This document shows, in pieces, positions 6,288-63,833 of a DNA stretch of 64,000 nucleotides (positions are counted from its first letter, which is position 1; each line of letters opens with the position of its first letter). The notes beneath the pieces were generated by a model that did not search any database, was not told where the DNA came from, and worked only from the letters and a program-made list of their open reading frames with translations. The position numbers and the translations under genes are program-made. Origin of the DNA: Caulobacter sp. Root343 (GTDB taxonomy: Bacteria > Pseudomonadota > Alphaproteobacteria > Caulobacterales > Caulobacteraceae); the NCBI RefSeq assembly GCF_001425745.1, contig NZ_LMDF01000011.1:218387-282386 (forward strand). The letters are read 5' to 3'.

Positions 6288-6312
6288 GGCGTCTCGCCTG
6301 ACTGAAGATCAG

Positions 6313-6343: not shown

Positions 6344-6416
6344 CATGTCCGCAATTCTGTCCTGGCCGGCGGCGGCTTCACCGCTATGGTCCCCGAACAC
6401 CGTTCCGGGAGAGCGC

Positions 6417-7247
6417 ATGTCCCTGTCCATTCTCGCCGCCCTCGCCCTGGCCGCGACCGCCCCCAAACCGTTGCTACCCGGGATCGTCGACACCCCGGCC
6501 ACCGAGGTCCGCCCCGCCTTCAGCCCCGACGGGCGCTGCATCCTGTGGGGGTCGATCACCACCCAGGGCGACTGGAAGATCCTGCAGACGTGTCGGGAAA
6601 GTGAAGGATGGTCCAAGCCCGCGCCGGTAGCGTTCGACACGCCCGCCAACGAGTTCGACCCCGCCTTCTCACCGGACGGCCGCACCGTCTACTTCTTCTC
6701 CAACCGGCCCGGCGGCGCGGGCGGCGACGACCTGTGGGCGGTCGAACGGGATCCCGGAACCCTGGCCTTCGGGACGCCACGAAATCTCGGTCCGCGCTTC
6801 AACACCGCCGGCGACGAGTGGGCGCCGAGTCCCACCAACGACGGCAAGCTGATCTTCTCCTCGAACGGCCACGGCGGGGCTGGCGGCCAGGACCTGTTCG
6901 AGGGCGACCTGGCCGGAGACGCGCCGGTCCGCAACCTCGGCCCCGGCGTCAACGGCCCCAAGGACGACTTCGACGCCGCCCTGCTGGCTGGCGGGAAAAG
7001 TCTGGTCTTCGCCTCGGGCGACCTGAAGGCCGAGACCGGCGTGCTGCTGCACGTCGCCCGGCGCGGCGCCGACGGGAGGTTCACGGGCCGGCGGGCCCTG
7101 GCCGCGCCGGTCAACTGCTCGGCCGAGATCAACAACGGGCCGGCGATCGATCCGCGCCGGCCCGAAGTCTTCTTCTACTCAGCCTATTGCCCGGCCCTGG
7201 GCCTGGGTCGGATGGACATCTTCGAGGTCCCCGTTCCCAGCCGCTGA
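6417..7247 (+). CDS. PD40 (TolB-like beta-propeller) protein
   Basis: Predicted exported protein with a short hydrophobic N-terminus (SLSILAALALAAT) and several WD40-like PD40 blades, each with an FSPDGR-type motif: RPAFSPDGRCILW, DPAFSPDGRTVYFFSN, SPTNDGKLIFSSN. Such propellers occur in TolB and in OmpA/peptidase-linked surface proteins, but this one has no extra domain, so its partner is unknown. I chose the ATG at 6417 (GGGAGAG before it) over the one at 6345, which lies in the ctpA terminator. Its 3' end overlaps the convergent GNAT gene by about 70 nt. Confidence 0.8.
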   Translation: MSLSILAALALAATAPKPLLPGIVDTPATEVRPAFSPDGRCILWGSITTQGDWKILQTCRESEGWSKPAPVAFDTPANEFDPAFSPDGRTVYFFSNRPGGAGGDDLWAVERDPGTLAFGTPRNLGPRFNTAGDEWAPSPTNDGKLIFSSNGHGGAGGQDLFEGDLAGDAPVRNLGPGVNGPKDDFDAALLAGGKSLVFASGDLKAETGVLLHVARRGADGRFTGRRALAAPVNCSAEINNGPAIDPRRPEVFFYSAYCPALGLGRMDIFEVPVPSR

Positions 7248-13678: not shown

Positions 13679-13691
13679 GTGTAGGCTGATC

Positions 13692-13720
13692 TCCGCCGGC
13701 TGCTTCGCCGGCGGGGTTTG
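13692..13720 (+). terminator. Hairpin after the tailed hydrolase
   Basis: CCGCCGGC pairs with GCCGGCGG around TGCTTC and is followed by GGTTTGCTT. It is a moderate intrinsic terminator, 14 nt after the stop. Confidence 0.6.
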
Positions 13721-13732
13721 CTTAGGGCGTCC

Positions 13733-14482
13733 ATGCGCGCACCGGTGATCATGGTCCACGGCGCCTTTTGCGGCGGCTGGACCTTCGACGTGTTCCGTAC
13801 CCCTTTCGAGGCGGCCGGCCATCACGTCCTTACACCCGACCTGATCGGCCACGACGGCCAGAGCAGCGCGGCCGGCGTGTCGATGAGCGACTACGCCCGC
13901 CAGATCGCCCGCCTGGCCGAGGCCTGCGAGACGCCGCCCATCCTGATCGGCCACTCGATGGGCGGCCTGGTCGCCCAGATGGCCGCCAGCCGCGCCAAGG
14001 TCTCCAAACTGATCCTGCTGGCCCCGTCCGCCCCCTGGGGCGTCTCGGGCGCGACCCTGGAGGAGGCGGTCTCGGCCGTCAGCCTCTACGCCCTGGGCCC
14101 CTACTGGCTGCAGGCCGTCGCCCCGGACTATGGCGTCGTGCGCCGCTACAGCGTCGACCGGCTGGCTCGCCCCGAACGCAAGGCCATCTTCGCCCGCATG
14201 ACGGCCGAGAGCGGCCGGGCGTTGTGGGAGACCCTGAACTGGTGGCTGGACCCGTTCATGACCACCTCAGTCTCGTCACCCGGCTGCCCGGTGCTGGCCG
14301 TCGCCGGCGGCCAGGACGTCATCCACCCGCCCGCCACCGTCCGCCAGACGGCCGCGCGCCTGGGCGGCAGCGTCGAAGTCTTCCCCGAAATGAGCCATTG
14401 GCTGCCGGGCGAGCCTGGCTGGGAGGCGGTGGCCGCGCGCTGCCTCGAGTTCATCACGGCGGAAGACCGGGCGGCGGCTTAG
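13733..14482 (+). CDS. Alpha/beta hydrolase
   Basis: 249 residues with the hydrolase signatures MVHGAFCGGWTFD (oxyanion region), GHSMGGLVAQ (nucleophile serine near residue 78), an acid in VAGGQDVIHPP and histidine in EMSHWLPGEPGW. It resembles small esterase/lipase-type hydrolases; the substrate cannot be assigned. I used the ATG at 13733 instead of a TTG at 13718, which would lie in the preceding hairpin. It is separate from the tailed hydrolase and only distantly similar to it. Confidence 0.85.
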   Translation: MRAPVIMVHGAFCGGWTFDVFRTPFEAAGHHVLTPDLIGHDGQSSAAGVSMSDYARQIARLAEACETPPILIGHSMGGLVAQMAASRAKVSKLILLAPSAPWGVSGATLEEAVSAVSLYALGPYWLQAVAPDYGVVRRYSVDRLARPERKAIFARMTAESGRALWETLNWWLDPFMTTSVSSPGCPVLAVAGGQDVIHPPATVRQTAARLGGSVEVFPEMSHWLPGEPGWEAVAARCLEFITAEDRAAA

Positions 14483-14500
14483 TAGCCCTCTCCTCAACCG

Positions 14501-14628
14501 ACCTCCCCGGCGAAGGCCGGGGTCCAGATCGAGCCATGGCCCGTTCGGGTCTTGGCTCAGACCCGTGGCGCGAACGCGCGAGCCTCTCCGGATGAATCTG
14601 GGCCCCGGCCTTCGCCGGGGAGATCGGT
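14501..14628. repeat. CerM-like long palindromic intergenic repeat
   Basis: Left arm 14501-14529 (with CCCCGGCGAAGGCCGGGG) and right arm about 14596-14628 (with CCCCGGCCTTCGCCGGGG) form a long inverted repeat around a 66-nt centre. Each arm is also a hairpin by itself. A GAATC, the CcrM methylation site GANTC, lies at 14594-14598 at the start of the right arm. Caulobacter genomes carry intergenic repeats linked to GANTC sites (CerM), and this fits that type. It separates two convergent genes and may end both transcripts. Confidence 0.75.
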
Positions 14629-49751: not shown

Positions 49752-49864
49752 CCAGATTAGTCCGGCCATGACCAGAGCGCGATCAAGGCCGCACGTGACG
49801 GTCTGTCGCTATTTCGCCGAAGGACCGGATGGCGCTCGCCTTCAATCGCTCTATTTGGAGGGTC

Positions 49865-50614
49865 ATGACCTGGTCCGACCGCCTCGCCCCGTCGCTCGAC
49901 GACTTCGCCGCCCTGGCCAAACAGGTGCTCGACGCCCTGCCCGCCAACTTCCGCGCCCGATCTGGCAGGGTGGCGGGCCAGGTGGCGGTGCGCGTCGAGG
50001 ATTTCCCGTCCGAGGCGATGCTGGACGACCAAGGGATCGAGGATCCGTTCGCGCTGACGGGCCTCTACCAGAACGCCGACCCGGCGGTGTTGCTCTTCCG
50101 CCGCCCCATCCTCGATGAATGGGCCGAGCGCGGCGACGTCTCGCTCGGCGACCTGATCAGCCAGGTGCTAGTCGAAGAACTGGGCGGGGATGCGCGTGTC
50201 ATCGGAGCCGCGTCCCCCATCGAAGGGTTGCTCGGCCTCAAGGCGCCGTCCTCCGCCTATTTCGCGGAGATCGCGAACCAGACGCATACAGGCCTTCCGC
50301 CCGCGATCCGGTCGGCGGTCGGCGAAACGCGTGTGATCGTCGAGGATTTCGCCAACGAAGCCCTGCTGGCGTCCTTGGACATCGAGGATCCGTTCGAACT
50401 GACCGGCGTGTACGAAGGCGTCGACCTCACCCAGCGCAGCGTCCTCGACCTCGTGCCCATGCCCTCGACCATCCGCCTCTTCCGACGCCCGATCCTGGAC
50501 GAATGGTTCGATTCCGACACCGGCATCGCCTCGCTGATCGAGCACGTCTTCGTACACGAGGTCGCCCACCACTTCGGGTACAGCGACGCGGACATCGAAC
50601 GCGCCGAGGGTTAG
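49865..50614 (+). CDS. Duplicated zincin metallopeptidase with inactive first copy
   Basis: 249 residues made of two copies of the minimal zincin domain (PF06262-like). Copy 2 (about 140-249) has VFVHEVAHHFGYSD, an intact HExxH near residue 231. Copy 1 (about 15-125) aligns over VEDFPSEAML/VEDFANEALL, IEDPFALTGLY/IEDPFELTGVY and FRRPILDEW/FRRPILDEW. At the zinc site, however, it reads VLVEELGGD and lacks both histidines. Substrate unknown. ATG at 49865 follows GGAGGG; the upstream ATG at 49829 is less likely. It diverges from divL. Confidence 0.85.
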   Translation: MTWSDRLAPSLDDFAALAKQVLDALPANFRARSGRVAGQVAVRVEDFPSEAMLDDQGIEDPFALTGLYQNADPAVLLFRRPILDEWAERGDVSLGDLISQVLVEELGGDARVIGAASPIEGLLGLKAPSSAYFAEIANQTHTGLPPAIRSAVGETRVIVEDFANEALLASLDIEDPFELTGVYEGVDLTQRSVLDLVPMPSTIRLFRRPILDEWFDSDTGIASLIEHVFVHEVAHHFGYSDADIERAEG

Positions 50615-50872
50615 CGGCCGAAGGCTCCAGCCCGCCCAGCCTTTAGAGTTTCACCTGCAGCCGATCGCTACCGATCGGCCAAGCCCCGGCTCTTGGCGCT
50701 AGAACAACACGCGAAACCGGCGCTGGCGTCCGCGACGGTTTGACCGCTTCCACGGTCAAGCTCGTTCAGGCGCGCTTCATCTTGGAAGGGAGATGCTTCG
50801 GCCCGCGCAGACGGCAGGCCCCGACGGGCTCGCGATCGTCTGCGCCTGCCCACCGGCGACGAGGACCGAGCA
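50615..50872. other. Upstream region of the GTPase/SEDS/PBP operon
   Basis: No gene seen. It must contain the operon promoter; no clear -35/-10 pair or operator is visible. CGATCGCTACCGATCGGCC near 50663 carries a short CGATCG repeat. Confidence 0.4.
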
Positions 50873-51502
50873 ATGGCGGACGGCCATTTTCCAGACGTCG
50901 AACTTCTGCGGCGCGAACTCGCGGTCCTGATCCTCGAATGGGCCGGGAAGGCGGTGAAGGACGACCCGGACGGCGCGATGTCGATCGCCCTGACCCGCGC
51001 CGTGAGCGAAGCCGCCCGTGGCGCCGTCGCCGAGCAGCACCGGATCCTGACCGCCGACGCCGCCGATCGGATCGCCGAGGCGCTCGAACGCCGCGGCAAG
51101 AGCGGCGGCCTTCTTCGGGTCGCGTCCCCTTGGGGCCTCGGCCTCATCGCCGTCGCCGCGATCGCGCTGCTGGCCGCCGCCTTCCTCCTCGGGGTGCGGA
51201 CGGGCAGAACCGAAGGCGCCCTGGCGGCGGCGCCGCCGCCGGCCGCGTCGGTCGCCGCGCCAATCGCACCGCTTGTCCCGGAACCCGACGCGCCGGCGCA
51301 GGCTCCGCCCCGCCCCACGGCCGAGCGGCCTCACTCTGCTCAGCGCGCCGCCCCGGTCCCCGCCAAGCCAGCCGCAAGGACGCCGCCACGCACCCTGGGA
51401 CGGCCGGCCACGGCCAGCGGCGACGCCTCGGCGCATTCAGCCCAGCCGGTCGGCGCCGCTACGACGCCGCCAGCCGCTCCGACACCGGCGACGCCCCAAT
51501 GA
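50873..51502 (+). CDS. Single-pass membrane protein, first gene of the GTPase operon
   Basis: 209 residues, no known family recognised. A cytoplasmic helical N-terminus (FPDVELLRRELAVLILEWAG and following, about 1-80), one membrane helix (GLGLIAVAAIALLAAAFLLG, about 85-105), then a Pro/Ala-rich tail of 100 residues likely to cross the periplasm. Its stop and the next start share ATGA. The layout fits an adaptor tethering the cytoplasmic components to the envelope (inference). Confidence 0.8.
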   Translation: MADGHFPDVELLRRELAVLILEWAGKAVKDDPDGAMSIALTRAVSEAARGAVAEQHRILTADAADRIAEALERRGKSGGLLRVASPWGLGLIAVAAIALLAAAFLLGVRTGRTEGALAAAPPPAASVAAPIAPLVPEPDAPAQAPPRPTAERPHSAQRAAPVPAKPAARTPPRTLGRPATASGDASAHSAQPVGAATTPPAAPTPATPQ

Positions 51503-53037
51503 CCGTCTTGGTCCCAACCGCCGTCATCGGCCCGAAGGCCCAGGGCCGCAACTACGGCCTGCGTCGCTACGCCGGTCCGCGCCTGACCTCCGAAAGCCAG
51601 GCGGGTCTCGCCGACTTCGCCCTCTCCCTGGCCGGGTGGGCCATGCTGCGACGGCGTCGTTTCGTCGCCATGCTGCCGCTCGCCGGCGACGGTTCACGCT
51701 TCGCCGTGGCGCGGGCGCGTCACCTGGGCGAGGGCGAACTTGGCCCGGTGGCCGTCGCCCATCTGCTCGTCGTCGACGCCGACTTGCTCGAAGCGCTCGA
51801 CTGGGCTTCGCCCCGCCTGTTGCGTCTGTTGCCCGAACCGGAAGACGCCGCCTTCGGCCTCGAGCCGATCACGGTCTCGCCCGGCGACCTGACCTGCGCC
51901 GTCGCCCGGCCGCTGACCGCATCGCGCGTGGGCTGGGCCGACGTCGCTGTCGACGTCGGCGACGAGGATCCTGAAACAGTGCTCTGCGCCCTGGTCGAGG
52001 GCGTCGAGTCCTCGACCCGGCGGGCGCGCCTCACCGGATGGGCCAGCACCAGCCTGGTCGCGCCGGCTGGCGATCTCGATCCGGCCCGCGCCTTCAAGCT
52101 CGTGACCTACGCCTCGGCCGAGAGCCCGGCGGCTTTCCAGGCCACGCATGAGCTGCTGTCGCTCAGGGCGCTCGCCGAACCGTCCCTGGCCTGGAAGGCC
52201 TGGCTGAAGCTGGCCGCGATCGCGGAGCGAGAGCCGGCCGCCGCCGCCCTGCGCTCGGCCCGGTGGTCGCAGGACAAGGCCCGCCTGCCCGCCGACGACG
52301 TGATGTTCGAGGAGATCGCCTCGGCCTGCGCCGCTCTGACCCCCGCGGCGATGATCGCGCTGCTGCGCGCGGTGATACGCCATGCCGGCGGCGCCGACGC
52401 GGTCAGCGCGGCGCTGCGGGAGGGCGTGTCCGAGACGTTCAACGCCGTGGTCGCGGTCGCCGACGCGGAGGGGGCCGCCTTCTATGTGCGCGGCCTGGTC
52501 GACGGCGCTGATCCCGTCGCCCTGACGGCCTTGCCGGGCCTGGACGAGGTGATGGCCCGCCCCGCCGTCGCGGCCTGGCTGGGCGACATCGTCCATCGCC
52601 TGGACCTCACCGGCGTCGTCCGTCTGTGGGCGACGCGGCTCGCGGCCGACCCCGCCTTCGCCGAGGCCATCGCGCCGGTCGGGGCCGCCTTCCTCGACGC
52701 CACGCTCGACGCCGCCCTGGCCCGTCTCGACGACGAGGACACGCGGTGGCTGGCCGGAACCTTGTTGCGCCTGCGATGCGCGCGCGGAGCGGTGGAGGGC
52801 GCTCGCCTTCGCATCGCCCTTTCGGCCTTGCTCGCCGCGCCGCCGACCAGCGCCGACGCCGCCCTCGCCGACCCGAAGGTGCTGGAGGTCGCCAAGGCCT
52901 TCGCCCCCGAACTGTCGGCCACGCTGGCGGCTCGGGCCATCCCCGCCGGCCTGCGCCAAGCGCGCCATCCGGCCGAGTTCACCCGCGCCGCCTGGGCCCT
53001 GGTCGCCGCGGCCGGCGCGGAGAGGGCGGCGCGATGA
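51499..53037 (+). CDS. GTPase-associated protein 1-like (GAP1) component
   Basis: 512 residues, probably cytosolic. The N-terminus has a strand-rich region (GRNYGLRRYAGPRLTSES) followed by AVARARHLGEGELGPVAVAH, which resembles the GAP1-N domain where a LGxxxxGPxxxHxLL segment is typical. The rest is helical repeats rich in Ala/Leu. GAP1 proteins are companions of double-GTPase proteins in predicted NTP-dependent systems (known association). The similarity is from memory and not computed. Its ATG and stop both overlap neighbours by 4 nt. Confidence 0.6.
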   Translation: MTVLVPTAVIGPKAQGRNYGLRRYAGPRLTSESQAGLADFALSLAGWAMLRRRRFVAMLPLAGDGSRFAVARARHLGEGELGPVAVAHLLVVDADLLEALDWASPRLLRLLPEPEDAAFGLEPITVSPGDLTCAVARPLTASRVGWADVAVDVGDEDPETVLCALVEGVESSTRRARLTGWASTSLVAPAGDLDPARAFKLVTYASAESPAAFQATHELLSLRALAEPSLAWKAWLKLAAIAEREPAAAALRSARWSQDKARLPADDVMFEEIASACAALTPAAMIALLRAVIRHAGGADAVSAALREGVSETFNAVVAVADAEGAAFYVRGLVDGADPVALTALPGLDEVMARPAVAAWLGDIVHRLDLTGVVRLWATRLAADPAFAEAIAPVGAAFLDATLDAALARLDDEDTRWLAGTLLRLRCARGAVEGARLRIALSALLAAPPTSADAALADPKVLEVAKAFAPELSATLAARAIPAGLRQARHPAEFTRAAWALVAAAGAERAAR

Positions 53038-54608
53038 TCTATTGTGAAGTGTGCACCAACGCGTTCTCCGGCGAAGACTTCGCCGACTGCCCGCACTGCG
53101 CCCTGGCCGAGGGCCGCGCGGCCACGCCCGCGGTTCGCGCCTCCGACGCGCCCACCCCCACGCCCGGTGTGACCATGGGCGAGGTGATCGACACCCTGCG
53201 CCGCATGACGCCGCCCGAAGCCAAGCCTCAGGCGCCGCCGACATCCGAGCCGCAGCCGCCCGAGGGCCTGAGCGAAAGCCTGCGCGCACTGGTCGAGCAG
53301 AAGGTCGACCAGGCCGCCGCCGCGGCGTCGGAAGCGCCGACCTTCGCGTCCGAGCCGACCGAGGCCGAGCCCGCCGCCAACGGCCCCATCGTCGGCCAGG
53401 CCGCCCGCGAGCTGGACATCGAGACCCTGCGCCGCATCCGCGAGTCCGGCGTGTTCACCGTGGTGCTGCTGGGCTTTCCGACGGCCGGCAAGACCTGGTT
53501 TCTGAACCGGCTGAAGTATGAACTGCAGGAGGGCGACGCCTATGCCTGCTATCCGCGCCGCGCGCCGCCGGGCGACGTGGAGAACACCGTGCAGTTCACG
53601 GCCCACCGCTTCCGCAAGGGGGCCAACGACTTCTACGTCATCGACATTCCGGGCGAGCGTTTCCTGCGCGCCGTGGAGGGCTCGTTCCTCGGTGAGTCCA
53701 ACACCCTGATGCGGCACGTGATCCATACCGGCCAGGCCTTCCTGACCCTGCTGCCGGCCGACGAGACCCTGCTGTCGGAGCTGGCCCACGACGTGCTGTG
53801 GCGTCGCGCCGCCGCTGGCGGGACCGCGGCGGTCGATCCGGCCGGCCTGCCGCCGCCCCAGGCGCTGATCGACCGGGTCGACACGCTGAAGCGGATGATC
53901 TCCCAGGCGCGCAAGGCGACGGAGGCCGGCGACGGCAAGGCTCAGGCCAAGCTCAAGGCCCTGGTCCGCGAGCGCAGGCGCCTGTTGGAGGGCGGCGTCG
54001 AACAGGCGCTGCAGCGCCTGGCCTCCAAGCACGAGGAGCTCGGCGAATATATCAGCGGCGTCGGCCTCATGGCCCAGCTGATGGTGGTGATGGAGGAGCG
54101 CGGCGGCCCCGACCTGGACCCGTCGATCGACGCCTACGCCGTGTTCGACCGCAGCCGCGACGCCGAGCGCAAGAAGCCGACCAAGCCGATGTTCATCGTC
54201 CTCTCCAAGAGCGACGACCTCACCCACCGCTCCGACGCGGTGCAATTGCCGATCCGCCGGCTACTGCAGGGCCATCCGCGCGCGGCCCATCTGCTGCGCG
54301 TTCTCCGGCGCGAGCCGCGCAAGGCCGACGCCTTCGCGACCCTCAACGCCTTGCGGCCGGGGGTCGCGCGCCAGATCGACGAATGGTTCGCCCTCGCCAG
54401 CTTCCAGTTCGCCACCGCCTTCGAAGGCGTGGCGCGCGGCTCGACGACCATCAATTACCGGCTGGGCCATGTCGGGGTCACCGAGCTGATCCGCGCCCTG
54501 CTGCGCTTGAAGGAACACACCGAGAAGCGGCGCGCCTGGGACGGGGTGGCCAGCCTGTTCCGTCGGCGTCAGCCGGCCGAGGCGCCGCTGGCGGAGCCGG
54601 CCCCGTGA
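53034..54608 (+). CDS. Zinc-ribbon GTPase (double-GTPase-like)
   Basis: 524 residues. Residues 4-22 form a zinc ribbon (CEVC-11-CPHC). A disordered acidic linker follows. The G domain (about 135-510) has GFPTAGKT at 147-154 (G1), a Walker B aspartate in FYVIDIPGERF (G3) and LSKSDD (G4-like, replacing NKxD). The long insertion with coiled-coil character (TLKRMISQARKATEAGDGKA onward) is unusual for TRAFAC GTPases but fits double-GTPase (DO-GTPase) proteins found beside GAP1. ATG overlaps the preceding stop as ATGA. Confidence 0.8.
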   Translation: MIYCEVCTNAFSGEDFADCPHCALAEGRAATPAVRASDAPTPTPGVTMGEVIDTLRRMTPPEAKPQAPPTSEPQPPEGLSESLRALVEQKVDQAAAAASEAPTFASEPTEAEPAANGPIVGQAARELDIETLRRIRESGVFTVVLLGFPTAGKTWFLNRLKYELQEGDAYACYPRRAPPGDVENTVQFTAHRFRKGANDFYVIDIPGERFLRAVEGSFLGESNTLMRHVIHTGQAFLTLLPADETLLSELAHDVLWRRAAAGGTAAVDPAGLPPPQALIDRVDTLKRMISQARKATEAGDGKAQAKLKALVRERRRLLEGGVEQALQRLASKHEELGEYISGVGLMAQLMVVMEERGGPDLDPSIDAYAVFDRSRDAERKKPTKPMFIVLSKSDDLTHRSDAVQLPIRRLLQGHPRAAHLLRVLRREPRKADAFATLNALRPGVARQIDEWFALASFQFATAFEGVARGSTTINYRLGHVGVTELIRALLRLKEHTEKRRAWDGVASLFRRRQPAEAPLAEPAP

Positions 54609-55159
54609 ACCGGCGCGGCGGCGCTGCGCCGTTGGTCGCCAGCGGTCTCCTGGCCATGCTGGCCATGGTCGGGCTCGCCTGGGCTTTCGGCCTGACGCCG
54701 CACCTCGGGACCTCGACGGTCGGCGCTGCCCCCACCCGGGGCGGGGGGACGTGGATCGAGCGTCTGGGCCTGTCGCAGCTCGAGCCCTGGTCGTCGCCGA
54801 CGCCGGCCTTTGCCGAGCGCCTCGCGGCCCTGGGCGACACGCCGCATGGCGCGGCGCTGAAGCGAGACCTCTGCCAGGGCGCCGGCATGGACACCGATCC
54901 GGCCTTCCGCGAGGCGCGGCGGGCCCTGGTGCGCAACGACGCCGAGCTTTGTCCAGCACCCATCGAGCACGTGGCGGCGGTCTCGCCGGTGATCGTGACC
55001 CTCGGCCCGCGCCTCGGCTGGCCATGCCTGGTCGCGGCGGCGATCGCGGGCGTGGGCCTGGCGCTGTGGCGGCTCCTGGCCCTGAAGCGGGCGCTCGACC
55101 GCTGGCGGCTGCTGGGCCGATCCACCTTCGGGGCCGCGCGGAGGGCGGGCAGCGGATGA
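54605..55159 (+). CDS. Small two-pass membrane protein
   Basis: 184 residues from a GTG that overlaps the GTPase stop (GTGA). Two membrane segments (about 9-28, SGLLAMLAMVGLAWAF; and about 138-156, CLVAAAIAGVGLALWRLLAL) enclose a periplasmic segment with three cysteines (RDLCQGAG, DAELCPAP, WPCLV). No family recognised. It would bridge the GTPase and the SEDS-like protein in the membrane (inference). Confidence 0.8.
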   Translation: MNRRGGAAPLVASGLLAMLAMVGLAWAFGLTPHLGTSTVGAAPTRGGGTWIERLGLSQLEPWSSPTPAFAERLAALGDTPHGAALKRDLCQGAGMDTDPAFREARRALVRNDAELCPAPIEHVAAVSPVIVTLGPRLGWPCLVAAAIAGVGLALWRLLALKRALDRWRLLGRSTFGAARRAGSG

Positions 55160-57921
55160 GCGGCGTCCTGCTGGGTGTGACCTGCCTGGCGCTCGGTCTG
55201 GCGTTCTGGCGTGTGGCGACGGACGGCGGATCCGCGCGACGCAAACCTTCGGCCTCGCGCATCGCGGCCCTCGCCGTGGGCGTTGCGGCGCCGGCCGTGC
55301 TGGTCGTGGGATGCCTGTTGACGGCGACGCTCCAGGGCAGGACAGGCGAGCTTCGCCTGTCCTTGGTTCGGCTGACGGCCGAGGTCCGCCAATTCCCGCT
55401 GCGTCTCGGCGGCGACGCCAGCCGTGACGACCTCGTCGTTCCCCGGCTGCCCGCCGGCTTCGCCACGGTCGAGCCCGATCTTTCGCGTGGCGGCGAGGCC
55501 CCGCCGCTGGCGCTGGTCATCGCCGGCACCGACGCCGCGCCGCCACAGACCGTGATCGGCCTGCGCCAGGGCCGACGCCTCGCCTGGCCCACCGCCCTGG
55601 CCTTCGCCGACGGGGACGCCGTCTGTGTCCAGGCGCCCTGCGAGAAGGCCGGCGCCGCCTGGGCCGTGCTGCGCGGGCGGGTGCTGATCCCCGCGAACTG
55701 GCGCGACGGCGAGGTCGTGGCGCGGCCCGGCGCCGGCGCCGGTCCGACCATGCCGGCGCGCAAGACCCTGCTGGCCTTCGGCGGCGTCAACGATTGGACC
55801 CCGGTTCAGGCGATCCATCCGTTGCGCGATTTCTTTCCTCGTCGCGGCGCCCCCGACTCCGGCGGCCTGCTAGCCGACTGCGATCGCTGGCTCTGCGTCG
55901 GCAAGGCCGGAACCCGCGCTCCGGCCCGCAGCTTCCTGTTTCAGCAAGGCGGGTTCGGCGGCTCGGCCTGGTCGATCATTCTCGCCGACCCGGGCGCGCG
56001 CATCGCGCGAGGCGGCCGGGTCGTTCCCTACGCTCCGCCCGTGGCCATCCCGCTCGGAACGGGAATCACGGTGGAGATCTTCGAACCACGCTTCGTCGAT
56101 GGCGATCTCGATCAGCCGGACGCGCGCCGAGGTCGCCTGCAGCTGCGCCGCGGCCTGACCTTCGCCGAGCGTGACGGCCTCGCCGAAATCGCCTTCAGGA
56201 CGCCGCCGACCGAGGTGGTCGGCCGTTGCGAGCCAAGTGGGACGCCGCGACGCTTGGGGCTCGAGGCGGCCATTGTCGGCGGGCTCACGGCCGACGCGCT
56301 TCGTGCGGCGCCGGTCGCGCCCCAGGGACCAGCCTGCGCCAGCTTCACCCACGCCAGGCTGGACGCGCCCGCCGCCGGCCCCGCCCTGCGCACCGCGCAT
56401 CTCGCGCTGGATCGGCTGGCGGCGCCCTGGCCGGCGGTGCTGATCATCCTGGCCTGGACCGTCAGCGTCCTCGTCGCCGGCCGCGACCTATTCCATCGTC
56501 GCCCCGCCTTGTGGACGATCCTCAGCCTGCTGCATCTGCTGCTGGCCCTGCGGCTGCTGATCGGCCTGGCCGCCGCCGAGGCTGATCCGACGCTGGACTG
56601 GCGCGAGATCCTCGGCGACGCCGCCGTCGCCTATGTCGCCGTTCCGGCCGCCCTGCTCGCCTGGGCGCGGGCCGGCGAGCCGCGCCAGTCCGGCGACCTG
56701 ACGCTGGATCTCGCCCCGCCGCTGACCGCCACCGCCGTGCTGGCCTGGACCCATCACCTCAGCGTCCTGGCCCTGTTGCTGATCGGCGCCTGGGGTCTCG
56801 CCGTGCTCTGGCGCGCCGCGAACACGCCGCCGGCCAAGGGCGCCGCCCCTTCGACCCTCGGTCGTCTCGCCGCGCGCTGGCGACAGCCGCCCTCCTCCCA
56901 ACCACGATGGCTGTCCGGCGTCCTGCTGCTCGTCATCGTCCTGGTGGCCCGCCTCGCGGTCGGGGCTGTCGGCTGGAAGGAGCGCATCGACCTCGGGGTC
57001 ACGGTGCTGGCGATCAGCGTCGTCTACACGCCCCTGATCCTGATCGGTTTCGGTCGCGTCCTGGCCGCCAGCGAAACCCGGCCGACCGGATGGCTTCGTC
57101 CGGGCGTCTTCTGGACGCTGCTGGCCCTGGCGACCTTCGTCGTCCCGTTCACGGTGCGCGACAGCGGCTACGCCCTGATGTTCCTGCCGATCGCCGGAGT
57201 CGCCGCCGGCCTGGCCTGGCGTCGGCGGGTCGCGCGCCTCCCGTGGACAGCGCCGGCGGCGGCGGCGATGGCCGTGCTACTCGTCCTGCCCATCCTGGGC
57301 GCCGTCGGCGCCGCCCGCGCCGATCGCCTGGGCCAGACCGCCCAGATGTCGCGCGGCCTGAGCGACGAGCAGGCCTTGGCGTCGCTGGACCGTCAGGCCA
57401 AGGCCAGCCAGAACCTGCTGCGGCTCTACCTGATCGCCGCCCCCGAGGCGTTGGGCGCGGACGCCTCGACCGAGGCCGAAGCCCTGAAGATCTGGTCGGC
57501 CCAGCTTTCGGACTATACGGGCTCGCTGTTCGGTCGCGGCTACCTGTCGCCGGCCAATCTCACGGCTCTCAAGCCGGTGCAGGCCACCGACAACCTGACC
57601 GCCATCCACCTGATGTCGCCGTTCGGACGCCTGGCGACTGGCCTGCTCCTGGCCCTGCTGGCGGCCGCAGCCATCGCCGTCCAGTTCATGACACGCACGA
57701 TCGGTCTCGACGCGCGTCGCGCCACGGGCCTTCTGGCCCTGTGGTGCCTGTTCGGCGCCGCCACCTACATGACCCTGGCCAACCTGCAGCTGGTCCCCTT
57801 TACCGGCCGCAACGCCTATCTCCTGGCCCCGACCTCTGGGGGCGACCTGCTGGAGGGGGCGATCCTGGTCGCCCTCGCCGTCTGGGGCCTGGCCGAGCGC
57901 GCTTCGGAGGCGAAGCGATGA
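55156..57921 (+). CDS. Large polytopic membrane protein with SEDS-like (FtsW/RodA) C-terminal half
   Basis: 921 residues: two N-terminal helices, a periplasmic beta-rich domain (about 65-430, with cysteines and disulfide potential), then about ten membrane helices. The C-terminal part has GSLFGRGYLSPANL followed by QATDNLTAIHLMSPFG and NLQLVPFTGRNAYLL. In SEDS glycan polymerases, a loop between helices ends in a TDF-type aspartate and the final helices carry N-x-PxTG. The candidate catalytic aspartate is D812. I infer SEDS, supported by the PBP gene directly after it. Unusually large for the family (370-480). Confidence 0.7.
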   Translation: MSGVLLGVTCLALGLAFWRVATDGGSARRKPSASRIAALAVGVAAPAVLVVGCLLTATLQGRTGELRLSLVRLTAEVRQFPLRLGGDASRDDLVVPRLPAGFATVEPDLSRGGEAPPLALVIAGTDAAPPQTVIGLRQGRRLAWPTALAFADGDAVCVQAPCEKAGAAWAVLRGRVLIPANWRDGEVVARPGAGAGPTMPARKTLLAFGGVNDWTPVQAIHPLRDFFPRRGAPDSGGLLADCDRWLCVGKAGTRAPARSFLFQQGGFGGSAWSIILADPGARIARGGRVVPYAPPVAIPLGTGITVEIFEPRFVDGDLDQPDARRGRLQLRRGLTFAERDGLAEIAFRTPPTEVVGRCEPSGTPRRLGLEAAIVGGLTADALRAAPVAPQGPACASFTHARLDAPAAGPALRTAHLALDRLAAPWPAVLIILAWTVSVLVAGRDLFHRRPALWTILSLLHLLLALRLLIGLAAAEADPTLDWREILGDAAVAYVAVPAALLAWARAGEPRQSGDLTLDLAPPLTATAVLAWTHHLSVLALLLIGAWGLAVLWRAANTPPAKGAAPSTLGRLAARWRQPPSSQPRWLSGVLLLVIVLVARLAVGAVGWKERIDLGVTVLAISVVYTPLILIGFGRVLAASETRPTGWLRPGVFWTLLALATFVVPFTVRDSGYALMFLPIAGVAAGLAWRRRVARLPWTAPAAAAMAVLLVLPILGAVGAARADRLGQTAQMSRGLSDEQALASLDRQAKASQNLLRLYLIAAPEALGADASTEAEALKIWSAQLSDYTGSLFGRGYLSPANLTALKPVQATDNLTAIHLMSPFGRLATGLLLALLAAAAIAVQFMTRTIGLDARRATGLLALWCLFGAATYMTLANLQLVPFTGRNAYLLAPTSGGDLLEGAILVALAVWGLAERASEAKR

Positions 57922-60503
57922 GCCGCCGGCCGAAACGCTCCGCGAGCTGGACCCGCGTCCTGACCATCGCCGCGCCGTTGGCCGCCGTCGTCGCCCTTGT
58001 CGCCGGCGCTCCGGCGGTGCTCGCCGCCCTCGGACGGCCGTCGGGCCAGGGTGTCGCCAGCGGCTATGATCGCCTGGTCGACGCCATCGCCCAGCGGCAA
58101 TGGCTGTCGGTGCGCTACGACGCCCACGGCGAGCCGCGGATCGCCCTGCGCGACGGCCCGGTCGGCGACGACCGGCGTCTGCGCGCCTTCGTCAACGAGT
58201 CCTATCTGCGCAACGATCTCCAGGACCCGGCGGTCTGGCGGCTCAGCGACGACGGCCAATGGGTCGAGGGCATCGATCCCTACGCCCACCAGATCGATCG
58301 GCCGTTCTCGGGCGGCGGCGCCTGGAACGGGCCGATCCTGTTCCGCGCCGGCCCCTCGCCGGGTCCGCGCCTGCAGCCGCTGGGCGAGCCGCTCCCGCCC
58401 CCCATCGTTCTGGAACCGCGGGGCGCGCCCGCCGCCGCTTGCGACATCCTTATGCCGACGCGCCGCGCGAGCGCGCCCGGGCCGCGCCGGGCCCTCTCGA
58501 TCTGCCTGAAGGATGGCGACGCCCCGCCGCACGCCGTCGGCTCGGTGATCCTGATCGGAGACCAGGCCGTCGTCCGGGTGCAGACCCCGTCGATCCTGGA
58601 AATCCGCGTCGGCGGCCGAGACGCGCGGCCGCGCGCCGACGGCGAGGTAACCCTGACGCCCCTCCCACGAGGCGAGACCCTGACCTTGCGGACCGGCCAG
58701 TCGGTGCTGCGCCTGCGCCTCGACGGCGGGCCGACCGATATCGCCCACGGCGAACCATCGGGCGCCCGCGCCTACTTCCCGGCGCTACAGCCCCTGGCGC
58801 AGCCGGTCGAACGCGCCATGGCCGGTCGACCGCCCAAGCCCCTGCGGCTGTCGCTCGACGCGCGCCTGCAACAGGAAGCCCAGGACGCCCTGTCCGCCGG
58901 TGTCGCCACGGTGCGCGCCAGCCCGTCGCCAGACGCCAAGCCAGACCCCGGCGACGCCTTCAAGGCCGCTGTCACGGTGATGGACACGACCAGCGGCCAG
59001 GTGTTGGCCGTCGCCTCCTGGCCGCTGATCGAGAACGATCTCGCGCCCGCTCAGCGCCGCATGCGCCGTGGCCAGAACCTGATCGACCAGAACCACAATT
59101 TCGAGCGCCTGCCTGTCGGCTCGATGGCCAAGGGGCCGTTCTCCCTGGCGATCCTCGACGCCGATCCGGGCTTGGCGACGTTGAAGATCCAAGGCGGCGC
59201 CACCGGCCGCGTCCGCACTGTGCTGGGCATGGATCTCGGCAAGGGCGGGTTCGACAACCACGGGCTCGGCATGACCGATTTCCCGACCTTCCTGGAGCAT
59301 TCCAACAACCGCTACGCCCTGGCGCTGATGATGCTGGCCTATCGCGATCCGGCCGCGCCGTCCGCACCGGCGCGCGCCCAGCCGCCGCCGGTTGAGGCCT
59401 GGTCGCTGGAAGGGCGAAGCCGCACCGACACCCCGCCCTTGCCAGTGTTCGGCGAGGCGACGGCGCCGGGGCCGTTCGGATGGGTCCTGCGCCCGCCGCC
59501 CGGACGCGGCCCGGCCTGGACCGATCGCCTGGCCCGGCTGTTCGACCTCGACGCAGGCCAGGGCGGAGGCTGTCATTACGATGTCGGCGTCTGGCGGGGC
59601 CTGGCCGGGGCGACGCCGCCCTGCGCCTCGCCCTTGGCCGGCGCCGCGCCGGAGCGCGAGCACCTCGGGTTCGACGCCGTCGCCTCCTTCCGCAACGACT
59701 ATCTGATGGCCGTGCTCGGCGGCAGCCGCTCGACCTGGAGCGCCATCAAGATGGCCGAGGTCTATTCGCGGATCGTCACCGGCCGCCAGGTGCGAGCCCG
59801 CCTCACCCCCGCCGCCGATCCGCCAGCCGCCGACCTGCCGATGCGCAGCCCTGGCGTCCGCGCCACGGTGCTCGACGGCCTGTCGCGCGTGGTGAAGAGC
59901 GGCACCGCCGCCTGGCTCGGCCGCGAGTTCGCCGGCATGGGCTACGGCCCGGACGTCGCGCTGTTCGGCAAGACCGGCACCATGAAGGTCGCCGGCGAGG
60001 CGCCCAGCGAACCAGGCGCGATCCTGCTGCGGCAACTTGCGCGCAGCGACTGCGGCTTGCGATGGGACGCCGCGGCCGGCGTGCTCAAGTTCGGCTTCGT
60101 CGCGCCGCGCGACCGGGCCGAGGCGGCGCGGCAGATCCTGGGCCTCAAGGAGACCCGCTGCCGGGTGCGCGTCGCGAGCCGGCGCGATCTCGCCGACCAG
60201 GCGGCGGCGGAGATGCAGCGCTACGCCTGCGGCTACCGCAACTGTCAGCCGGGGGATTTCGAGCCCGAGCCGGACGGCCGCGTCGTCACCCTCCCGCTGC
60301 GTCCGGTCGAGCCTCCGTTGCTCGACGGGCACGCCATCGCCGTCGTCGCCGTGCGTCAGGAGGGCGGGCGGCCCGTGCGAGGCCTGACCATCGTCGTCAA
60401 TCTGCAGGACAAGCGCCAGGCCGAGACACCCGCCCTGGCGGTGGCGGCGGCCATCCTGCGCTCGCCCGCCGCCCATGCCTGGATCGCCGGAGGCGGGACA
60501 TGA
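57918..60503 (+). CDS. Penicillin-binding transpeptidase (class B-like)
   Basis: 861 residues: one N-terminal membrane anchor (about 14-34), a large periplasmic non-catalytic region (about 35-310), and a transpeptidase domain. Catalytic motifs are complete: SMAK at 402-405, SNN at 462-464, and KTGT at 685-688. The spacing from SxN to KTG is wide (223 residues against about 150 in FtsI), with a Pro-rich and Cys-containing insertion. Partner of the preceding SEDS-like protein, as in RodA-PBP2 and FtsW-FtsI. ATGA overlaps at both ends. Confidence 0.85.
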   Translation: MSRRPKRSASWTRVLTIAAPLAAVVALVAGAPAVLAALGRPSGQGVASGYDRLVDAIAQRQWLSVRYDAHGEPRIALRDGPVGDDRRLRAFVNESYLRNDLQDPAVWRLSDDGQWVEGIDPYAHQIDRPFSGGGAWNGPILFRAGPSPGPRLQPLGEPLPPPIVLEPRGAPAAACDILMPTRRASAPGPRRALSICLKDGDAPPHAVGSVILIGDQAVVRVQTPSILEIRVGGRDARPRADGEVTLTPLPRGETLTLRTGQSVLRLRLDGGPTDIAHGEPSGARAYFPALQPLAQPVERAMAGRPPKPLRLSLDARLQQEAQDALSAGVATVRASPSPDAKPDPGDAFKAAVTVMDTTSGQVLAVASWPLIENDLAPAQRRMRRGQNLIDQNHNFERLPVGSMAKGPFSLAILDADPGLATLKIQGGATGRVRTVLGMDLGKGGFDNHGLGMTDFPTFLEHSNNRYALALMMLAYRDPAAPSAPARAQPPPVEAWSLEGRSRTDTPPLPVFGEATAPGPFGWVLRPPPGRGPAWTDRLARLFDLDAGQGGGCHYDVGVWRGLAGATPPCASPLAGAAPEREHLGFDAVASFRNDYLMAVLGGSRSTWSAIKMAEVYSRIVTGRQVRARLTPAADPPAADLPMRSPGVRATVLDGLSRVVKSGTAAWLGREFAGMGYGPDVALFGKTGTMKVAGEAPSEPGAILLRQLARSDCGLRWDAAAGVLKFGFVAPRDRAEAARQILGLKETRCRVRVASRRDLADQAAAEMQRYACGYRNCQPGDFEPEPDGRVVTLPLRPVEPPLLDGHAIAVVAVRQEGGRPVRGLTIVVNLQDKRQAETPALAVAAAILRSPAAHAWIAGGGT

Positions 60504-60886
60504 AGCCCTGGGTCCCGCGCCTCGGCGTCGCCGTGCTGTGGCTCGCCGCCATCGGCCTTGGCGCCGGGATGGCCCGGCCTTCGCCGGCGCCGCGTGTCGA
60601 CGCCACGGCGCCGCGCTGGCTTACCGTGGACGTCGCGGCCGACAGCCCCGCCGCGCGCGACTGGCCGCACTTCTTCGCCTGCTCCGGCCTTGCCGGCGAT
60701 CCCGTCCTGATGCGCGCCACCCTCGGACTCAACGGTGGAGGCTCGGAAAGCGTTTGGCGTCGAGACGGTTCGGACACGCCGATCCGCGTGGCCCTCGTCC
60801 CCCTCGAGACCCCGGCGGCGGACGAGGCCGATCGGATCATAGAGGCGGCGACCCGAGCCGTCGCCGATTGTGGAGACACGCCATGA
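60500..60886 (+). CDS. Small secreted protein of the GTPase/PBP operon
   Basis: 128 residues with a signal peptide or anchor (RLGVAVLWLAAIGLGAGMA). The mature part has two cysteines (FFACSGLAGDP and VADCGDTP). No family recognised. ATGA overlaps with both neighbours. Confidence 0.75.
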   Translation: MKPWVPRLGVAVLWLAAIGLGAGMARPSPAPRVDATAPRWLTVDVAADSPAARDWPHFFACSGLAGDPVLMRATLGLNGGGSESVWRRDGSDTPIRVALVPLETPAADEADRIIEAATRAVADCGDTP

Positions 60887-63105
60887 CGGTCCTCCGGACC
60901 GAGACGCCGCTCCGTCTAAAGGTCGACGGCTTCCGCAAGCCGCTGCGCCTGCGGCCGTTGCGCCGCGAAGGCGCTTTGGAGACGTTCGCGGTCGAGGGCG
61001 AGACGCTGGAGGCTGTGCGCTTCGCCCCGACTGGCGTCGTGCGCGACGTCGGCGGCCGGCTGACGGCCCTCCCTGACGTGGCCGACCTCTACGCGGCGGC
61101 GCAGGACGCTTTCGAGGCGCTCGGCCGGCGGCTGCGGGCCGTCGCGCCTCGCGCCGCCCTGCCCGTCGAGGACGTCGTCCGGGCGGCGAGCGGCTGCTTC
61201 TGGCTGCAGCCCCCGCCCGGCCCGTCCCTCGAGATGTGGTTGGCCGGCCATCCCGGCCCCGTGGCCGAGCCTGTCGTCGCCGCCTTCGCCCGCCGCTTGG
61301 CCGAGGCCCTCGGCGAGCTGCACGCGGCCGGCGTTGTCCACGGGGATCTGTCGCCTCGAGCCGTGCTGATCGATGACGGCGAGGTTCGCCTGACCGGTTT
61401 CATGATCGATCGCCGCCCGTTCTTCCGCGTGCTGCGCGGCCAGCAAGGCCTGGTCGAGTCCGGCTATGCGCCGCCGGAAGCCCACGACGGCGCCCTGCGC
61501 CATCCCATCGGCCCGGCCGCGGATCTCTACGCCGCCAGCGCCCTGCTCCAGCGTCTGCTGACCGGCAACGCGCCGCCGGCCGCCAACCTCGCCGCCCGTG
61601 TGGCCGGCGACAACGTCTGGCCGAGCGGCGTCGTGATGTCCGCCGGCTTGCGCGTCGGGATCGAGGCGGGCTTGGCGCCGGTCGCGGCGGATCGTCCCGC
61701 CAGCGCGGCGGCGTGGTTGGCCGGCCTGGATCTCGGCCCCGAGCCCGAGGAGAGCCCCTGGTTCGACGGCTTGGCGAAGGCGCCGCCAGCCCCTCCGTCG
61801 CCGGAGCCGGAACCGGAGACCGATCCGTTCGTCGTGCCGCCTCCGCCGGCGGTCGAGGCCGAGGCTGATCCGTCCGCACCGGCGCCGGCCGTCGCCGAAG
61901 CCCCGCTGACGCTCGCCCGCGACACGCCGGCCCGTCGCCGGCTGGGCCTGTGGACCGGCGCCGTCAGCCTCGCGGTGGTCGCCGTTGCCGTGGCCGCCGC
62001 CCTTGTCGGCCCCAAGCTCAATCCACGTCCGCCTTCCCGCGCCGAGGCGCCCGAAGCCGTCGCCCCCGCCGCGCCGACGGGCTGCCAGTGGCTTTCGGCC
62101 GCCGATGGCTGGCGGCTGCGCTGCCCGGACGCGCCGGCCCAAGGCCTGCGCTTGCCCGAACGGTTCGACGCCCAGACGACGGCGCGCGCCGCGGCGGGCG
62201 AGCCAGCGGCCATGGAGCGGCTGGGCGCCTTCTATCGCCTGCGGGCCGGCGAGACGGCCAATCCCGACCGCGGCGCCTATGCCTATCAGGCGCTGGGCTG
62301 GCTGCAGCGCGCCGCTGGCGCTGCCGACGACGGTCGACCCGACACGGCGCGGGCGCGCGACGACGCGGCCCTGGCGCTCGGCCAGATGCTGGCCCACGGC
62401 GAGGGCGGCCGCGCCCCGGACCCCGCCGCCGCCGAAGCGCGCCTTCGCCAGGCCGCGGCCGGCAGCCGGGCCGACGCCGTGCTCGCGCTCGGCCAGCTCC
62501 TGGAATCCCAGGCCGGCGGCGATGCCGATCGACTGGCCGAGGCGCGCGGCCTCTATGCCCGGGTGGCCCAGCTCGGCGACGGTTCGATCCTGCAGCGCGA
62601 GGGCGAACGCGGCCTCGCCCGCATCGACGCGGTCGCCAAGCCGCCGCCGGTCGAAGTCGAGGCGCGACCCAAGCCGCCGATCGACGAAAAGCCCGTGCAA
62701 AAGCCGGCTCCGGCGCGGAAGCCTATCCCGCCCAAGGCCAAGCCGTCGCCCGTCAAGGCCGTCGCGAAGCCGCCCGCCCCGAAGATCGAACCACCCAAGC
62801 GGGCCGCGCCCGTTGTTCCCGCCCCGCCGAAGCCCGCGCCCCTCCCGCCTCGCCGCCCCGTCGCGCCCGTGCGTGCGCCGACACCAACGCCGGCGCCGGC
62901 CCTGCGCACCTGGACCGCCTCGACCTTCGTGAAGGTCGATCCGACGGCGAACTTCTCTTCCGCGGTGGAGCTGGCCGGCCGGGCCGCCTGCGACAGCGAA
63001 GGCGGCGAGACCCTGTCGGTCCGCGCCGGCGACACTCTCTGCCCCAACGGCGTCAACTACTGCCAGGTGCGCGCCGTCGCCACCTGCCAAGGAGCCAGAC
63101 CATGA
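60883..63105 (+). CDS. Membrane-anchored pseudokinase with Sel1-like repeats and Cys-rich C-terminus
   Basis: 740 residues. Residues about 1-300 form a protein-kinase-like domain. The catalytic loop is HGDLSPRAVL at 153-162, against HRDLKPENIL normally, so the Asn is lost. The DFG motif is replaced by LTGFM. C-lobe elements PPEAHD and GPAADLYAASALLQRLLTG remain. Then come a Pro-rich spacer, a membrane helix (about 350-372), Sel1/TPR-like repeats (about 400-570, ALALGQMLAHGEGGRA), a Pro/Lys-rich linker, and a C-terminal domain with four cysteines. Predicted sensor or scaffold rather than an active kinase. Confidence 0.8.
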   Translation: MTVLRTETPLRLKVDGFRKPLRLRPLRREGALETFAVEGETLEAVRFAPTGVVRDVGGRLTALPDVADLYAAAQDAFEALGRRLRAVAPRAALPVEDVVRAASGCFWLQPPPGPSLEMWLAGHPGPVAEPVVAAFARRLAEALGELHAAGVVHGDLSPRAVLIDDGEVRLTGFMIDRRPFFRVLRGQQGLVESGYAPPEAHDGALRHPIGPAADLYAASALLQRLLTGNAPPAANLAARVAGDNVWPSGVVMSAGLRVGIEAGLAPVAADRPASAAAWLAGLDLGPEPEESPWFDGLAKAPPAPPSPEPEPETDPFVVPPPPAVEAEADPSAPAPAVAEAPLTLARDTPARRRLGLWTGAVSLAVVAVAVAAALVGPKLNPRPPSRAEAPEAVAPAAPTGCQWLSAADGWRLRCPDAPAQGLRLPERFDAQTTARAAAGEPAAMERLGAFYRLRAGETANPDRGAYAYQALGWLQRAAGAADDGRPDTARARDDAALALGQMLAHGEGGRAPDPAAAEARLRQAAAGSRADAVLALGQLLESQAGGDADRLAEARGLYARVAQLGDGSILQREGERGLARIDAVAKPPPVEVEARPKPPIDEKPVQKPAPARKPIPPKAKPSPVKAVAKPPAPKIEPPKRAAPVVPAPPKPAPLPPRRPVAPVRAPTPTPAPALRTWTASTFVKVDPTANFSSAVELAGRAACDSEGGETLSVRAGDTLCPNGVNYCQVRAVATCQGARP

Positions 63106-63833
63106 TCCGAGCGACGCGATCCCTCGTGGCGGCGGTCGCCGTCGCCCTGCTGTCGGGCGCGAGCCAAGCCCACGCCCAGAACGCCTTTCGGGGCGATTGC
63201 GAGCAGGCGCGGCGGTTCGCCGACTCCGTCGCCTTCAAAGCGTCGTATCGCGGCGTGCAGCGCATGACGCCCCAGGCCGCCGATCCCTGCGGGCGGGACG
63301 TGGTCGCGATCTACGATCTGAAGCGGCGCAACGAATCCAACGCCAACTACGACCTGGTGGGGCGCTACTATTATCTGTGGCCCGACAACGCCGCCTGCCG
63401 CGAGGAGGTCCACGACCGTCTAGCCGGCGTCGCCCGCATCACCCAGGAGGTGCGGCCCAACGGCCTGCTCTGCGAGGTGCAGCTGCACCTCGACTTCGAC
63501 GTGGCCGAGGACGAGAAATACGGCCCCAACCGGTTCTCCAAGCTGATCACCCTGGTCGGCGCCGACACCTCGCGCTTCGCCGCCACCGCGCCGGGCGAGA
63601 CCGGCGGGACGGTCTTCTACGAAGCCCCGGCCCATACGGTCGATCGCGCCGCCGGCCCCGCCGACGAAAACAGCGACGTCGTCACGGACCGCGCCGAGGC
63701 GCCGCCCCCCGCCGCCGCCAATCCCTACACGCCCGGGCGCCGCCAGTTCTTCGACCGGCGGCTGGGCCGCTTCTATTATTACGACCCGTTGCGCGAGGCC
63801 TACTTCTGGGAGAATGGCGAGCCTCGCGACTAG
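63102..63833 (+). CDS. Secreted protein, last overlapping gene of the operon
   Basis: 243 residues with a Sec signal peptide (SLVAAVAVALLSGASQAHA). The mature part has six cysteines, including GDCEQARRF, ADPCGRD and NAACREEV, and is aromatic-rich at the end (RRLGRFYYYDPLREAYFW). No family recognised. Its ATG overlaps the pseudokinase stop; no gene overlaps its own stop. Confidence 0.78.
   Translation: MIRATRSLVAAVAVALLSGASQAHAQNAFRGDCEQARRFADSVAFKASYRGVQRMTPQAADPCGRDVVAIYDLKRRNESNANYDLVGRYYYLWPDNAACREEVHDRLAGVARITQEVRPNGLLCEVQLHLDFDVAEDEKYGPNRFSKLITLVGADTSRFAATAPGETGGTVFYEAPAHTVDRAAGPADENSDVVTDRAEAPPPAAANPYTPGRRQFFDRRLGRFYYYDPLREAYFWENGEPRD

Follow-up and report, generated by a model that had tools for sequence, protein, structure and literature searches.

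The known pairs of a SEDS polymerase and a class B penicillin-binding protein (PBP) serve housekeeping functions and are coupled to cytoskeletal filaments (MreB, FtsZ). Here we describe an operon of nine genes (g1 to g9) in Caulobacter sp. Root343 in which a SEDS-like gene and a class B PBP-like gene follow a GTPase gene. The operon occupies positions 50873-63833 of the + strand of a 64,000-nucleotide stretch (hereafter the window; coordinates refer to it) of contig NZ_LMDF01000011.1, which is C11 among the 12 contigs of the 5.36-Mb host genome. It is real, conserved and rare. Whether its products make up a further peptidoglycan synthase, complete in itself and governed by a dedicated GTPase switch in the cytoplasm, is, in our judgement, evenly balanced. 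As in the SEDS-class B PBP synthases RodA-PBP2 and FtsW-FtsI, the genes for both putative enzymes are adjacent, the SEDS-like protein has an aspartate in a long periplasmic loop and the PBP carries the SxxK, SxN and KTGT motifs. Unlike in these synthases, the SEDS protein would be the third of its host, it carries an extra periplasmic domain of ~360 residues, and GTPase and longin-like genes belong to the same operon.

The actinobacterial locus that groups rodA, pbpA, pknA, pknB and pstP likewise brings a SEDS protein, a PBP and a transmembrane kinase-type protein together. The operon differs from it in having a pseudokinase, and in having a GTPase/longin pair in place of the kinase/phosphatase switch. 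In the MglA/MglB and Rag-GATOR/FLCN modules a GTPase occurs beside a protein with a longin-like domain, as it does here. However, the GTPase g3 is larger and has a zinc ribbon, and the likeness is one of domain type, not of sequence comparison. TagF of type VI secretion is the top Foldseek match of the N-terminal domain of g2 (9t0n, E 0.05, not significant), whereas no type VI family was detected among the nine proteins by Pfam.

A further comparison is offered by the GAP1/DO-GTPase systems. According to Kaur et al. (2020, PMC7159879), the partners in GTPase-centric systems include tubulin, HSP70, kinase, phosphatase, FNIII and vWA proteins; none of the terms FtsW, SEDS and transpeptidase appears in the main text of that paper. 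These systems share with the operon a zinc-ribbon P-loop GTPase with a glutamate after DxPG, a large adjoining partner gene, membrane components and mobile-looking neighbourhoods. In contrast to them, the partner gene of the operon lies upstream of the GTPase gene, no FNIII or GASH match was found among the nine proteins, and by sequence neither this partner nor the GTPase belongs to the GAP1 or DO-GTPase families. A DO-GTPase is also noted in psp operons in PMC11237479. In the open-licence literature searched, we found no description of a GTPase/SEDS/PBP operon and no module of a GTPase and a longin or roadblock protein together with SEDS/PBP genes. A first-pass annotation of the window had also taken a polymerase/transpeptidase pair in a GTPase operon to be undescribed. 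The combination is new; most of its parts have known relatives. The operon points to a hitherto unrecognised means by which bacteria might switch on or place wall synthesis. If this is true, it would provide a compact model for a long-standing question, namely how a nucleotide switch in the cytoplasm starts glycan polymerisation across the membrane. It would also add a PBP and a SEDS enzyme overlooked by Pfam models, which may matter for antibiotics directed at the wall and for attack by other microbes.

A rare operon with conserved gene order

The nine open frames follow one another on the + strand, and each start lies 4 bp before the preceding stop (8/8 junctions). Gene starts were picked from candidate starts; with this choice, all junctions are ATGA or GTGA overlaps. 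The G+C content is ~70-77%, and at such a composition chance open frames occur on both strands. We regard the nine frames as real genes because other genomes of the genus carry homologues of all nine in identical order and because omega values of 0.07-0.40, computed for each gene from three pairs of copies by the Nei-Gojobori method, indicate purifying selection on all nine. The nine same-strand genes were thus confirmed in the order in which the first-pass annotation had read them.

In total, nine loci were identified, of which seven are of type A and come from the genus of the window, and two are of a divergent type B. All nine genes are present in the window, L015, L016, L031 and L032 (the last two from single-contig genomes), and L005 and L018 are type A loci cut by contig ends. 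Type B comprises L033, which also belongs to this genus and comes from a single-contig genome, and L012, from another family of the class. Duplicate records were set equal (L017 = L005, L019 = L012, L022 = L016, L023 = L015 and L027 = L018). In L032, g3 and g8 are each found in two frames (12972-14530 and 4629-6742), which reflects either an error in sequencing or a decaying operon.

The gene order of type B is adaptor, longin-type protein, GTPase, a protein with two transmembrane (TM) segments (~560 residues, weak TPR matches), SEDS, PBP and a small secreted protein. No counterpart of g8 or g9 was found by tblastn in either type B locus. Across the types, tblastn links only the genes for SEDS (31-38% identity to the window), PBP (31-33%), GTPase (25-28%) and longin-type protein (19-27%); the adaptor, the two-TM protein and the small protein were paired with type A genes by place and topology. 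The SEDS and PBP genes are adjacent in 9/9 loci. In all 7 loci long enough for the GTPase neighbourhood (window, L015, L016, L031, L032, L012 and L033), the genes for the GTPase and the longin-type protein stand directly before those for the two-TM protein, SEDS and PBP, and the end of the GTPase gene is visible at the contig edge of L005.

To assess how common the operon is, samples of the genome collection were surveyed. A SEDS profile detected the SEDS-like gene in 8/75 genomes of the genus and in 1/398 genomes of the phylum sample. A single-protein search of the class sample gave 4/289 genomes at E<=0.001 and 2 after filtering, namely that of the window and G044; the matches in G153 and G220 were dropped as weak fragments (22 and 17 bits) with internal stops. 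With a GTPase profile, 2/385 class genomes were found, the same two as for SEDS, and 2/398 phylum genomes, one of them false; the match in G199 was dropped as an AAA ATPase. No true GTPase-profile match in these two samples lay away from SEDS/PBP genes, and the random neighbourhoods in relatives that the first-pass annotation had named as counter-evidence were not seen. A search of 41 relatives with the single GTPase protein found 2 (the host itself and G016) and missed the divergent copy in G019, which was recovered with the SEDS profile. The scan of genome contigs, which yielded 5 loci, used two peptide patterns only. For these two reasons, distant copies may be missed.

Among 61 relatives of G044, a PBP search matched G044 alone. 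Another divergent pair was observed in G047 (L065, 2973-7973), where a PBP of 843 residues is encoded beside a SEDS-like protein of 814 residues with a long N-terminal extension (PF01098, 45.9 bits), a match that hmmscan overlooked at default filters. No GTPase was found among the larger open frames of this 12-kb contig. Accessory SEDS-PBP pairs may be more widespread than GTPase-linked ones.

The putative SEDS-PBP pair

The g6 gene (57918-60503) encodes a class B PBP-like protein of 861 residues with one N-terminal TM segment. Its motifs S402xxK405, S462xN464 and K685TGT688 are invariant in nine sequences. The protein matches TIGR03423 (pbp2_mrdA) with an E-value of 7.8e-8, which is under the equivalog cut-off of this model, and the g6 alignment matches PDB entry 6pl5 with an E-value of 4.1e-8. 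The match of g6 to PF00905 reached 18.1 bits at a cut-off of 22.1. No further Pfam family was found at E<=1, and thus no glycosyltransferase domain. With these motifs, the family match and no glycosyltransferase domain, g6 is by its sequence a class B PBP, and the invariant motifs and the PBP2 matches bear out the transpeptidase proposed for this position.

The preceding gene, g5 (55156-57921), encodes the SEDS-like protein of 921 residues. According to hydropathy, it consists of two N-terminal TM segments, a putative periplasmic domain of ~360 residues with six cysteines and a multi-TM core, with 11 TM segments in all at the threshold used. Asp812 lies inside a 98-residue loop (724-821) and is invariant in seven sequences. 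After this loop, three TM segments were counted in the L012 protein and fewer, at the threshold used, in g5 and in the L033 protein. In hhalign profile alignments, the ATDN of g5 falls on or beside the QTDF of FtsW. As predicted from these alignments and from topology, g5 has the catalytic aspartate that SEDS proteins carry in the long periplasmic loop preceding their last three TM segments.

The alignment of the g5 family was compared with a profile of 54 SEDS sequences and scored 34.6 over 285 columns, above 200/200 permutations in which the hydrophobic pattern was preserved (mean 17.8, sd 3.1, max 27.4) and above reversed controls (20.1 and 23.3). Taken singly, the SEDS proteins of the operons (n=7) scored 19.5-29.7, compared with 16.4-20.1 for six unrelated polytopic decoys. 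Earlier hhalign comparisons were weaker, with P 0.45 with two templates and 0.009-0.011 with 33. An unfiltered hmmsearch (--max) gave an E-value of 0.006 for 1/7 SEDS proteins and of 0.05-7 for the others. PDB profile searches with the SEDS, GTPase and longin-protein profiles returned nothing useful. Our data point to g5 as a remote SEDS protein. It would be the third SEDS protein of its host (G000), since the host keeps two canonical PF01098 proteins; G044 also has two.

The GTPase and its longin-like neighbour

The 524-residue product of g3 (53034-54608) is a P-loop GTPase with a zinc ribbon (CxxC-x11-CxxC) and the motifs GxxxxGKT, DxPGE and SxxD, as the first-pass annotation had proposed. 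These three motifs are invariant in six GTPase sequences, and the zinc ribbon is present in 5/6. Omega is lowest for this gene among the nine (0.07-0.17). Against MMR_HSR1, g3 gave an E-value of 0.005, below cut-off. An ARAGORN call of a tRNA-Ser antisense within g3 (54147-54241) is almost certainly a false positive of G+C-rich coding DNA.

According to PMC7159879, DO-GTPases have a conserved glutamate at Walker B and, in about 60%, an N-terminal zinc ribbon. Both traits are present in the g3 family (glutamate in 6/6, zinc ribbon in 5/6). Membership was nevertheless rejected, since there was no family match and g3 did not resemble DO-GTPases more than it did Era. Against DO-GTPase1, g3 gave an E-value of 0.13, and against DO-GTPase2 no match; the L012 GTPase reached 0.024 against DO-GTPase2, below cut-off, and PF19993 was silent across the host genome at E<=0.01. 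In hhalign comparisons, g3 scored 43.5 with Era alone, 22.0-36.6 with four single DO-GTPases and 44.9 with a DO-GTPase alignment; the last score was set aside because Era alone came to 43.5. The suggested kinship with DO-GTPases was thus not borne out.

The g2 gene (51499-53037), directly upstream, encodes 512 residues with a longin-like N-terminal domain (~1-130) and a helical remainder, and its product is a candidate GTPase regulator. In the AlphaFold model, the pLDDT of blocks is 67-89 over residues 1-130 and mostly worse in the rest (56.8 for the whole model). When the N-terminal domain (1-135) was submitted to VIA, the top 22 rows were longin-type chains with Z-scores of 5.5-7.1 over 92-163 residues, which is below the safe level of 8. 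They include GATOR1, FLCN, DENN and a Lokiarchaeal longin. MglB was found at Z 4.8, and MglB and other roadblock proteins together at 4.4-4.9. Many of the longin-type matches are GTPase regulators or scaffolds (GATOR1, FLCN, DENN, MglB, TagF), and other structural rows were PAS domains and helical repeats. As Z-scores below 8 can reflect a common arrangement of elements, a longin fold of the modelled N-terminal domain is likely, not proven.

The first-pass annotation had described g2 as GAP1-like, which the sequence comparisons do not support. The GAP1-N2 model (PF20013) was silent at E<=10 across the whole host genome and had no match in 150 genomes of the phylum, and hmmscan gave 0 Pfam families for g2 at E<=1, hence no GAP1 model. 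In hhalign comparisons of g2 with two PF20012-positive GAP1-N1 proteins, the score was reached by 24/200 permutations for the N-terminal domain and by 71/200 for the whole protein, that is, at the level of chance. We therefore rejected a GAP1 identity on sequence. Systems of the GAP1-N1 type, with GASH, DO-GTPase2, DO-GTPase1 and GAP1 genes, were observed in other Pseudomonadota (L109, 4662-10185; L110, 5532-11122).

Membrane connectors, genomic sites and possible function

By hydropathy, three further proteins (g1, g4 and g8) cross the membrane. The g1 protein (50873-51502; 209 residues) has a helical-looking N-terminus, one TM segment (79-112) and an Ala/Pro-rich tail, as a membrane adaptor might; the type B proteins at its place are longer and have a C-terminal periplasmic part. 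The g4 gene (54605-55159; 184 residues) starts with GTG, and its product has two TM segments with a loop of ~96 residues between them. At this place, type B loci encode a protein of the same two-TM layout but with a loop of 393-437 residues. For g8 (60883-63105; 740 residues), a cytosolic kinase-type domain is followed by a TM segment (353-381), a periplasmic repeat-like region and a C-terminal domain, with six cysteines. It matches Pkinase (PF00069) over cut-off with an E-value of 5.8e-8. HGD is kept, and TGF stands at the DFG position in 6/6 aligned orthologues (the split L032 copy was left out). Owing to the loss of the DFG aspartate we regard g8 as a pseudokinase, in agreement with the membrane pseudokinase proposed at first. 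The g7 protein (60500-60886; 128 residues) has one N-terminal TM segment or signal anchor and a periplasmic part with two cysteines, and both type B loci encode a small protein with this topology in the corresponding position. The g9 protein (63102-63833; 243 residues), with an N-terminal signal-like segment and four cysteines, is present in all seven type A loci.

Motifs and predicted topology thus place the parts in cytosol, membrane and periplasm, as had been claimed. The number of cysteines assigned to the periplasm is 2 in the g4 loop, 6 in g5, 8 in g6, 2 in g7, 6 in g8 and 4 in g9. Among the type B proteins counted, which exclude the L012 PBP, it is 2-6 and even wherever cysteines are present, and it is zero in the g1 tail and in the L033 small protein. 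Even counts are what disulfides would give and therefore support the compartment assignments.

If the operon encodes an additional synthase, the roles would be those known from RodA-PBP2 and FtsW-FtsI, with g5 polymerising lipid II and g6 cross-linking the resulting strands. The g3 and g2 proteins would form a cytosolic switch in which g2 controls GTP binding by g3. Having cytosolic and periplasmic parts, g1, g4 and g8 would relay the GTP-dependent state to the synthase, with g7 and g9 as periplasmic partners, and all nine proteins would most likely form one complex. Activity of g5 and g6 on lipid II, regulation between g2 and g3, and GTP control of wall synthesis are what we infer from the predicted parts. 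As most relatives do not have the operon, its use is likely accessory, for example in wall repair or as a reserve synthase during attack or inhibition.

Several results weigh against such a switched synthase. In the comparison of the g5 alignment with the 54-sequence profile, the hhalign probability is 20%, and the Pfam SEDS models including PF01098 are silent on g5. Singly, 5/7 SEDS proteins score above every decoy and those of L031 and L033 score within the decoy range. The SEDS-like nature that the first-pass annotation gave to the 921-residue protein thus stands for the family profile, which exceeds all permutations, and less clearly for single sequences. The SEDS protein of G047 provided no link as an intermediate (best E 0.26 once added). 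Since the AlphaFold model of g5 (five-sequence input) has a mean pLDDT of 35.3 and is unusable, the SEDS fold is a putative one based on sequence comparison. The L012 GTPase carries neither the zinc ribbon nor the lysine of the NKxD-like motif. For g2, the best VIA Z-score of 7.1 is below 8 and the Foldseek E-value is 0.05. With tblastn, no significant match was obtained between g1, g4 or g7 and their positional counterparts in type B. Finally, rarity and changing flanks would suit a conflict system equally well.

Flanks of 2.1-13.3 kb per side were compared at a DNA threshold of E<=1e-10. They were dissimilar among the loci, except for the downstream flanks of L015 and L016 (3.9 kb, 82% identity) and short stretches (37-116 bp) immediately upstream of g1. 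Between L015 and L016 no common upstream flank was found, so that either the upstream region was rearranged or the insertion differs. A translated comparison added only short matches of 43-82 residues at 31-40% identity (L018 against L015 or L016 downstream, L031 against the window upstream, and the two flanks of the window itself). The flanks being mostly dissimilar, the cassette lies at mostly different sites. Horizontal transfer would be the simplest cause, and the operon is probably an accessory, mobile cassette. Plasmids were searched as well: the SEDS query matched nothing at 1e-5 and the longin query of type B nothing at E<=10, and the four matches of the type B GTPase query were chance matches.

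We tentatively consider a mobile wall-building or repair cassette, in which the GTPase/longin switch would act through three TM connectors, including the pseudokinase, to gate the third SEDS-PBP pair, and which would spread in the manner of a defence system. It is doubtful, on the other hand, that the operon is itself a conflict or defence cassette of the kind put forward for GAP1/DO-GTPase systems, in which the GTPase and the longin-like protein would sense an invader and the SEDS-PBP pair would be a guarded target or would rebuild or alter the wall. Its rarity in the genus (8/75) and its sites with mostly unrelated flanks resemble those of mobile defence cassettes, and a zinc-ribbon GTPase with DxPGE next to membrane components is reminiscent of the GTPase-centric systems of PMC7159879. 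However, apart from the kinase domain of g8, which is generic, no PADLOC family was matched at E<=0.01, and no variable effector was seen, as the nine genes are constant in type A and one order is kept across the types. In addition, g2 and g3 fall by sequence outside the GAP1 and DO-GTPase families.

A spatial switch, in which the GTPase and the longin-like protein mark a pole or another site in the manner of MglA/MglB and recruit the synthase for a local structure, seems unlikely; this is the localised synthesis that the first-pass annotation suggested. The MglB and roadblock matches of g2 agree with it and the three membrane connectors could dock the synthase, but none of the present results bears on location, and an operon found in so few genomes of the genus is therefore not needed for a genus-wide structure. 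Least probable is that g5 is a SEDS-like transferase whose substrate is a different lipid-linked glycan, that g6 is its diverged partner and that the product is other than ordinary peptidoglycan: the distance of g5 from known SEDS proteins and its large extra periplasmic domain would fit, but in 9/9 loci its gene lies beside that of a PBP with intact transpeptidase motifs, and profile alignments put Asp812 on or beside the SEDS catalytic aspartate.

The upstream neighbour of the operon on the same strand (49829-50614) encodes a Zincin_1 metallopeptidase-like protein (PF06262, E 6.9e-44), and at E<=1e-10 no DNA similar to this gene was detected upstream of the other copies. Between this gene and g1, 88 bp before the latter, lies a conserved block of 29 bp (50757..50785, + strand), which is a candidate promoter or operator. 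It occurs with 0-2 mismatches in 5/5 type A loci with upstream DNA, and no copy was found at <=5 mismatches in the type B loci. The block includes GTTC-N7-CTTC, one base off GTTC-N7-GTTC, the alphaproteobacterial LexA box; SOS control of the operon through this block is therefore possible.

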